DNA from: Apostichopus japonicus
Taxonomy: Eukaryota > Echinodermata > Holothuroidea > Aspidochirotida > Stichopodidae
Length of the DNA: 64,000 nt
Reading direction: 5' to 3'
Assembly: GCF_037975245.1 (NCBI RefSeq)
Contig: NC_092568.1
Coordinates: 34,876,501-34,940,500, forward strand
Each line of letters starts with the position of its first letter. Positions within the stretch are counted from its first letter, which is position 1. Shown here piece by piece: positions 35,891-36,631 of the stretch. A program made the translations under genes and the position numbers. Under the pieces are notes generated by a model that saw only the letters and a list, made by a program, of their open reading frames with translations, was not told where the DNA came from and did no database searches.

Positions 35891-36631
35891 ATGTCTAACA
35901 TTAGCCGCCCTGTTGTAAATTTATTGTTTGTAGCTGACTCTAGAGCCTATTCATTTGATCGTTATACTACGCCATCTAGCTTCCAGCATCGTATTGAATT
36001 TGTTATTAAGCGTGGAGCCACTGTAGGAGAATTACTCGCCCTCACACAACAGCGTATTCAACGATTTAACCCTAGCGACTGGTTGATAGTACGTCTTGCA
36101 GCTGGTATCAACGACTTGTTAGCATTCACAGGCACTTCCAGGCAAAGTCGAGTTATTACTTGTTCATCTGTCTCAGCTGATCAACTTATTGCTAGGCTCA
36201 TTCATTTTCGTGACACACTTAGACAGACTCACCCTAATTGTATAGTTTCTTTTGTCACCATCCCTACGGCCTCGTTCGAGAAATTTCAAAGTCACAAGAA
36301 TTTAGCCACGCCAACTCTTTCCACTGAGCAACTACACCAACTTCAACGAGACTTAGACAGCAAGCTAGACGTTATTAACGCCTCGATCCACGATATCAAT
36401 CAACAGCATCAGTCAGGGATCCCTACGCGTACAGTAAATTGGCATTCTTTCATTCGACGTCCCACTACACGTCGCAATCGTACTGGTCGGATTACGAGAG
36501 CGATTGTACGCAATACCTTTACCAAGCTCTACGACGGTCTACATGCAGTGTCTTCGCTAAAACAACGGTGGCATCTAGAGATTTGTAGGGCATTTTCAGC
36601 AGACGTATGTAATTTGCTGTCCCATCTGTAG
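35891..36631 (+). CDS. SGNH/GDSL-hydrolase-like accessory ORF of the LTR element
   Basis: 246 codons from the first ATG; the frame is open further up to 35705 without an ATG. It has the four SGNH blocks in order: VVNLLFVADSRAYSFD with the nucleophile position Ser17 (A-D-S in place of G-D-S), Gly42 in IKRGAT, AAGINDLL with G-x-N-D at 72-75, and KLYDGLHAV with D-x-x-H at 215-218. The spacing fits a compact esterase fold. Residues 184-208 are basic. SGNH/esterase domains are known in CR1-type ORF1 proteins and in Ngaro (DIRS-type) elements; I know of none described in a CsRn1-type Ty3/Gypsy element. It ends 100 bp before gag and is in another frame. Substrate is unknown. Activity is inferred only from motif retention. 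Confidence 0.75.
   Translation: MSNISRPVVNLLFVADSRAYSFDRYTTPSSFQHRIEFVIKRGATVGELLALTQQRIQRFNPSDWLIVRLAAGINDLLAFTGTSRQSRVITCSSVSADQLIARLIHFRDTLRQTHPNCIVSFVTIPTASFEKFQSHKNLATPTLSTEQLHQLQRDLDSKLDVINASIHDINQQHQSGIPTRTVNWHSFIRRPTTRRNRTGRITRAIVRNTFTKLYDGLHAVSSLKQRWHLEICRAFSADVCNLLSHL

Follow-up and report, generated by a model that had tools for sequence, protein, structure and literature searches.

A putative SGNH esterase gene ahead of gag in a CsRn1-type Ty3/Gypsy retrotransposon of Apostichopus japonicus

What is a gene with the signature of an SGNH/GDSL esterase doing ahead of gag in a long terminal repeat (LTR) retrotransposon? The question is raised by a 246-codon open reading frame (ORF), here called ORF0, in a stretch of 64,000 nucleotides from the genome of Apostichopus japonicus (contig NC_092568.1), the whole of which we call the window. 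A first-pass annotation of this DNA had placed the frame between the 5' LTR and gag of a Ty3/Gypsy element and had read in it the residues A-D-S17, G42, G72-I-N-D75 and D215-G-L-H218; every one of them is present, and LTRs, primer-binding site (PBS), gag and pol lie around ORF0 (Table 1). The element (window 34729-41696) is a complete and very young Ty3/Gypsy retrotransposon, very young because its two LTRs are identical over their full 843 bp, and the roughly 80 nt between pol and the 3' LTR leave no room for env. We favour, with a probability of about 0.6, the reading that ORF0 is an accessory SGNH esterase gene, inherited with gag and pol, through which ribosomes would reach gag by leaky scanning and whose product would serve a membrane step.

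The assignment of ORF0 to the SGNH hydrolases is supported by the family profile, the motif and the predicted fold. In 2000 first-order shuffles of the stretch from PBS to gag, no ATG-started frame reached 246 codons (the longest had 165). The protein, which starts MSNIS, is modelled with high confidence in the SGNH alpha/beta/alpha fold, the outcome that the first-pass annotation had made a touchstone of its proposal. The Ser, Gly, Asn, Asp and His of SGNH blocks I, II, III and V are all present in 41 of the 44 aligned rows that cover both S17 and H218, and the alignment has all five in each of the 15 intact copies of this genome. Counting only rows that have a residue at the site, S17 and H218 are each conserved in 98%, N74 in 100% and D215 in 96%, so the conservation that the annotation had wanted examined is borne out; the catalytic residues are among the best-conserved positions of the family. 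Profile A1 reaches PF13472 proteins at E values of 6e-6 to 9e-6 (hhalign 99.7%), and of these P0062 passes the Pfam cut-off. Individual relatives of ORF0 match SGNH models weakly (P0044 and P0046, E 0.07-0.19; the distant P0059, E 5e-4, still under the cut-off), and sequence searches of the PDB returned nothing for the window protein (P0001) and nothing for P0062. A PIN_2 match to ORF0 (Pfam, E 0.004, below the cut-off) was rejected because fold and motif are those of SGNH proteins. Between Trp184-His185 and the catalytic Asp215-x-x-His218 lies a basic stretch, about 26 residues long, which the structure prediction shows as a hairpin (E189-195, E201-208) at high confidence. Its mean net charge is +7.9, ranging from +3 to +11 in 47 of 47 rows; the remainder of the protein is near neutral, and the median isoelectric point of ORF0 proteins is 9.7. 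Five separate small SGNH proteins (P0060-P0064; DSRG ... GIND ... DGLHP; PF13472 in four of them) are distant relatives of ORF0 and possibly represent another mobile-element-linked esterase family.

The further copies that the first-pass annotation had proposed to look for exist, with ORF0 in the same place. A search of the genome (671.6 Mb, 35 contigs) gave 76 ORF0 match segments, and 20 further loci were fetched and analysed besides the window copy. Fourteen of them carry a full-length, open ORF0, so the absence or breakage in all other copies that would have told against the first-pass proposal is not seen. Together with the window copy there are 15 intact copies, which fall into four families: A (window, L009, L010), B (L014-L018, L020, L023), C (L019, L021, L022) and D (L025, L026). 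It is broken or partial in six (L011, L012, L013, L024, L027, L028). Downstream of ORF0, gag is found in 19 of the 20 loci and pol too in 18; L024 has gag only and L028 neither. In families B, C and D the ORF0 protein shares 38-46% identity with that of the window. Where an LTR pair was found, the identity of its members is 99.8-100% (family A), 99.1-99.8% (B), 98.3-99.9% (C) or 99.1-99.9% (D); no pair was found for L016 and L017 inside the fetched stretch. Relatives of ORF0 also occur in Holothuria leucospilota and other public assemblies, and the viral contig and genome contig collections yielded no loci with such relatives. The evidence for linkage with gag outside this genome is suggestive only, the gag relatives compared being the 120 listed of 1138 gag matches: P0025 (ORF0) and P0169 (gag) each lie on a contig of 12,783 bases, and P0037 and P0177 each on one of 9,321 bases. 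A further pair, P0003 and P0179, was rejected because both genes cannot fit on 1,286 bases.

Some of these copies deserve separate mention. Two pairs of near-identical ORF0 elements, L016/L017 on C17 (about 58 kb apart) and L021/L022 on C19 (about 49 kb apart), are perhaps segmental duplications and hence non-independent insertions; tandem repeats of about 212 bp lie downstream of both L016 and L017. About 15 places, including C8:34018356-34018887 and C8:39998058-39998589 (L028), hold a shortened relative of ORF0 with a common break near residue 78 and no match past about residue 180, hence without the Asp-His motif. L028, the sole such locus fetched, has no gag or pol match downstream, and these sequences may belong to one repeat family whose spread followed the break. 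Three relatives (P0023, P0040, P0049) are labelled as Sedimenticola sp. metagenome-bin proteins (ABW185 tags); our guess is that they come from animal-host contigs binned with a bacterial symbiont.

Selection on ORF0 was estimated from Nei-Gojobori counts in one pair per family, chosen after the first pairwise results (window-L010, L014-L018, L019-L021 and L025-L026; in family A, the pair with more changes). The four pairs pooled hold 22 synonymous and 13 non-synonymous changes, a dN/dS of 0.17 (binomial p 4e-7), and thus agree with the purifying selection that the annotation had asked about. The same pairs give 0.24 for pol and 0.42 for gag, so that selection on ORF0 is of the same order as on pol. 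Over the seven within-family ORF0 pairs computed, dN/dS runs from 0.10 to 0.62, the highest value resting on three changes; between families, dS is saturated in nearly every pair.

ORF0 is probably an addition to the element, gained once between PBS and gag, to judge by the tree of its relatives. Searched with gag, the genome yielded 82 match segments. Eleven further gag loci were examined; they were chosen for having no adjoining ORF0 match (in L038, a short match only), so their number is no measure of how frequent ORF0-less elements are. In ten of them neither four ORF0 queries in tblastn nor profile A2 in the forward frames revealed a trace of ORF0. Nine of these ten have the PBS pattern 70-393 nt upstream of gag; the corresponding distance in ORF0-bearing copies of families A, B and D is 831-1158 nt. 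The eleventh, L038 (C16:11746436-11750936), retains a truncated 81-codon remnant of ORF0, an open gag and a pol at 76% to that of the window, and two stops in its pol match mark it as a decayed copy. In a reverse transcriptase (RT) tree of 25 rows, which leaves out seven loci where no one match held enough RT, a single branch splits the 16 ORF0 rows (L038 included) from the 9 rows without ORF0. In 500 label shuffles this split was never equalled, a result that near-copies make easy. Trees of ORF0, gag and pol each recover the four families, without settling the order among them. We infer, as the first-pass annotation did, an independent capture of the esterase by the element.

How would gag be expressed behind such a frame? 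If the full-length RNA is translated, some scanning ribosomes would start at the mostly weak ORF0 AUG, and the remainder would traverse a frame nearly free of in-frame AUGs and reach the better-placed AUG of gag. Internal methionine makes up only 24 of 11,925 residues in the ORF0 proteins of alignment A2 and is absent from 30 of its 47 rows, a scarcity that was noticed post hoc in rows that are relatives and so non-independent. Methionine is rarer there than in the 120 listed gag proteins (349 of 35,068; Fisher p 1e-21), and the distant SGNH group A3 has 31 methionines in about 1,700 residues. In representatives of the four families, one of 969 internal ORF0 codons is an in-frame ATG, against 42 of 4,060 pol codons (p 0.0016), and families A (p 0.036) and B (p 0.045) have fewer out-of-frame ATGs than their codon-shuffled controls. 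The ORF0 AUG has neither a purine at -3 nor a G at +4 in A, C and D, the gag AUG has an A at -3 in all four families, and one or two AUGs stand between PBS and ORF0 in the representatives. A comparable layout lets ribosomes scan through the accessory ORFs of tungroviruses, and the same is predicted for badnaviruses (PMC5902531, drawn on in part, as are all papers cited here). Because of this resemblance we lean towards leaky scanning rather than splicing or internal entry as the route to gag. The alternative, that gag is made from a spliced RNA or through an internal ribosome entry site and that methionine is scarce for another cause, such as the avoidance of truncated isoforms, is a good deal less probable, and something does speak for it: in-frame ATGs are much scarcer than +1-frame ATGs, of which C keeps 6 and D keeps 7, and pure leaky scanning does not predict that. 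It fits poorly with the synonymous avoidance of NAT codons before G in ORF0 (odds ratio 0.45, p 0.04), which neither gag nor pol shares, and with the single +2-frame ATG across the four ORF0s. The same is true of the 20 AUGs between the ORF0 and gag starts of the representatives: 16 are weak, with neither a purine at -3 nor a G at +4, no frame that they open is longer than 20 codons, and in 19 cases the frame is closed before gag.

With respect to function, the product would be a serine esterase of SGNH/GDSL type, cytosolic and about 245 residues long, encoded by an accessory gene that a sublineage of env-less CsRn1-type LTR retrotransposons has since inherited together with gag and pol, as its co-occurrence with them in four families indicates. 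The hairpin, strongly basic and directly preceding the catalytic Asp and His in the sequence, could dock the protein on anionic phospholipid membranes or on the element RNA; a lipid or acyl ester could then be the enzyme's substrate at some membrane step, be it particle assembly, transport or cell-to-cell passage. The model for this is the esterase of ZfL2-1, which is an active hydrolase, binds anionic phospholipids, accumulates Arg and Lys on its surface and shows no binding of oligo-A RNA (PMC3905857). Taken with the hairpin, these properties suggest a membrane-docked esterase with a possible task at membranes while the element replicates and spreads, in keeping with the membrane or particle handling that the first-pass annotation had tentatively put forward. 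Such a role becomes more plausible, though this is only an analogy, if one considers that MDG1 elements encode a fusogen-like protein in the same interval and spread without env. A much bolder version, which we regard as a long shot, would make ORF0 a captured lipid-acting SGNH esterase, leaky-scanned ahead of gag through a methionine-purged frame, that serves this env-less Ty3/Gypsy lineage as its membrane factor, the enzymatic counterpart of MDG1 sORF2, and lets particles cross or leave membranes, perhaps from soma to germ cells.

Rather than a membrane enzyme, ORF0 might be a nucleic-acid-binding assembly factor, with the SGNH fold as a scaffold, the hairpin bound to element RNA and catalysis unimportant. 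Its position next to gag, the invariably positive hairpin and the high isoelectric point would all suit this; the near-constant Ser, Asn, Asp and His would be unexpected in a dead scaffold and the ZfL2-1 esterase does not bind oligo-A RNA, which leaves the idea unlikely. Somewhat less likely still is an active esterase directed at a host acyl or acetyl group (as a protein deacylase or glycan O-acetylesterase) that blunts host defence or alters a surface. The fold matches listed do include sialate O-acetylesterases and carbohydrate acetylesterases besides PAF-AH, but neighbours within the SGNH superfamily do not reveal the substrate, and extracellular glycans are improbable targets since no signal peptide or membrane anchor was seen by eye (no predictor was run). 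The esterase of ZfL2-1 is not among the 50 fold matches listed, which excludes nothing. Finally, a captured host gene carried as a passenger and kept by chance in a few young copies is strongly disfavoured: the identical LTRs of the window copy would fit, whereas open frames with catalytic residues in the diverged families B, C and D, the low dN/dS and the relatives in H. leucospilota and other assemblies do not.

Several observations weigh against the accessory-esterase reading that we prefer. A Pfam scan of the window protein alone gave no SGNH model up to E 10, so the profile search that the first-pass annotation had proposed turned up no Lipase_GDSL or Lipase_GDSL_2 match, and profile A2 met no SGNH entry among the PDB sequences, only unrelated weak matches. 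The branch that splits the RT tree has moderate support (67/81; 65% of bootstrap trees), L036, a long ORF0-less row, adjoins the ORF0 rows, and the tree is unrooted, so that formally it does not tell whether one side gained ORF0 or the other lost it. As for scanning, the depletion of out-of-frame ATGs is not seen in families C and D (codon-shuffle p 0.36 and 0.46), the ORF0 AUG of family B has a G at -3, and the leaders of A and D contain an upstream AUG in strong context (frames of 3 and 7 codons).

How does ORF0 compare with known systems? SGNH esterases have been reported in non-LTR, Penelope-like, DIRS and LTR retroelements. The first-pass annotation had named CR1-type ORF1p and Ngaro as carriers, in agreement with the literature, and had left out the GDSL esterase of an LTR element, ORF3 of bdelloid rotifer Vesta (PMC5408684). 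Vesta resembles the ORF0 element as an LTR retrotransposon with a GDSL/SGNH ORF whose invariant residues are intact; that ORF is said to be without transmembrane or coiled-coil domains, and most Vesta members to be without a bona fide env. Its esterase gene, however, follows gag and pol whereas ORF0 precedes gag, it belongs to rotifer lineages that are not CsRn1-type (a comparison by description, not sequence), and its intragenomic evolution is reported to show no significant departure from neutrality. In CR1/L2/RTEX elements such as ZfL2-1 an SGNH esterase also stands ahead of the polymerase ORF and the basic surface recalls the hairpin of ORF0, but those are non-LTR elements that lack Gag, and their esterase is built into an ORF1p of several domains that also has a coiled coil (PMC3905857); ORF0 is a single-domain gene of its own, alongside gag, and its element has LTRs. 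Ngaro-like DIRS elements share a retroelement-encoded SGNH hydrolase of putative function, encoded after the tyrosine recombinase in elements with split direct repeats (PMC9210276), where the ORF0 element has LTRs and an integrase.

Accessory ORFs ahead of gag have likewise been described. The MDG1 group of Drosophila (PMC11952523, a preprint) consists of env-less Ty3/Gypsy elements (Metaviridae) with sORF1 and sORF2 upstream of gag, and their full-length transcripts are described as showing no sign of splicing there. Their sORF2 is a fusogen-like membrane protein of about 70 residues, mostly with an N-myristoylation motif, quite unlike the 246-residue globular enzyme-type fold of ORF0 with neither that motif nor an evident transmembrane segment. 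The rice Retrosat2/FRetro3 elements also have an extra ORF0 upstream of gag-pol, which in some members was taken, from predicted structures, to encode a hydrolase of ester bonds (PMC3485330); these are plant elements with LTRs of more than 3 kb, the inferred functions vary by member, and the text drawn on, from whose description we compare, mentions no SGNH motif. ORFs I-II of tungroviruses and badnaviruses precede the polyprotein and are free of internal AUGs, leaky scanning having been shown in RTBV, but these are plant DNA pararetroviruses, ORF I of RTBV starts at AUU (PMC5902531), and ORF0 keeps some weak out-of-frame AUGs. No pre-gag ORF is mentioned for the CsRn1/PwRn1/AgCR clade in the portion of PMC2582038 drawn on.

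What is already known, then, is that LTR elements can carry GDSL esterases (Vesta ORF3) and that accessory ORFs can precede gag (MDG1, rice Retrosat2). An SGNH ORF that precedes gag in a lineage of CsRn1 type, and that shows signs of co-inheritance and scanning, appears to be new: none turned up among the papers listed in searches of the open-licence PMC literature, a body that excludes Repbase reports and most subscription papers. ORF0 adds a lineage in which purifying selection maintains an SGNH gene as a companion of gag and pol, in the very slot where MDG1 elements carry a fusogen-like protein, and it raises the question of whether diverse retroelements meet a common membrane problem with lipid-active enzymes. 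If the scarcity of methionine throughout a protein family is a footprint of translation through its frame, further accessory genes ahead of gag could be looked for by the same mark. With ORF0-bearing and ORF0-less relatives in the same genome, one catalytic Ser and one basic hairpin, this is also a clean test system.

The placement of the element in the CsRn1 clade, made in the first-pass annotation, is supported by its sequence marks. Members of the clade are described as having a tRNA-Trp PBS, a CHCC gag motif and, in some, a -1 gag/pol overlap (PMC2582038), and the assignment rests on these marks, the RT tree being built from own-genome copies only. Just internal to the 5' LTR, at 35574, TGGTGACCCCGACGTG is complementary to tRNA-Trp; a pattern search finds such a PBS in 3 of 3 copies of family A, 7 of 7 of B, 1 of 2 of D and 0 of 3 of C. 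In the window gag, which matches DUF7041 (Pfam, E 2.5e-32), the CHCC signature reads CYFHNSFGDNARKCRPPC, and pol overlaps gag in the -1 frame. An Rfam scan of the element gave no match.

Table 1. Features of the retrotransposon, in window coordinates.
Feature	Position	Strand	Basis
Target-site duplication AGGGT, left copy	34724..34728	.	Read from sequence; 4 bp (GGGT) possible if the LTR is one base longer
5' LTR, 843 bp	34729..35571	+	Exact repeat of 40854-41696
Primer-binding site, tRNA-Trp type (TGGTGACCCCGACGTGA...)	35574..35591	+	Sequence; motif matches CsRn1-clade description in PMC2582038
ORF0, SGNH/GDSL-esterase-type accessory gene, 246 aa; Ser17, Gly42, Asn74, Asp215, His218; basic hairpin at about residues 189-208	35891..36631	+	Sequence, profile, predicted fold, own-genome homologues
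gag, 289 aa; DUF7041 domain and CX2HX9CX3C (CHCC) knuckle; AUG with A at -3, G at +4	36732..37601	+	Sequence, Pfam
pol: protease (match below Pfam cut-off), RT, RNase H, integrase; -1 frame relative to gag, overlaps gag	37538..40774	+	Sequence, Pfam
Polypurine tract (GGGGAGGAGCTAG)	40840..40852	+	Sequence
3' LTR, 843 bp	40854..41696	+	Exact repeat of 5' LTR
Target-site duplication AGGGT, right copy	41697..41701	.	Read from sequence

Elsewhere in the window (50226-50856), with no evidence of a gene, two overlapping 200-codon frames run through a short tandem repeat (GPIYPILSGAKLSYI...) and form a coding-looking minisatellite.
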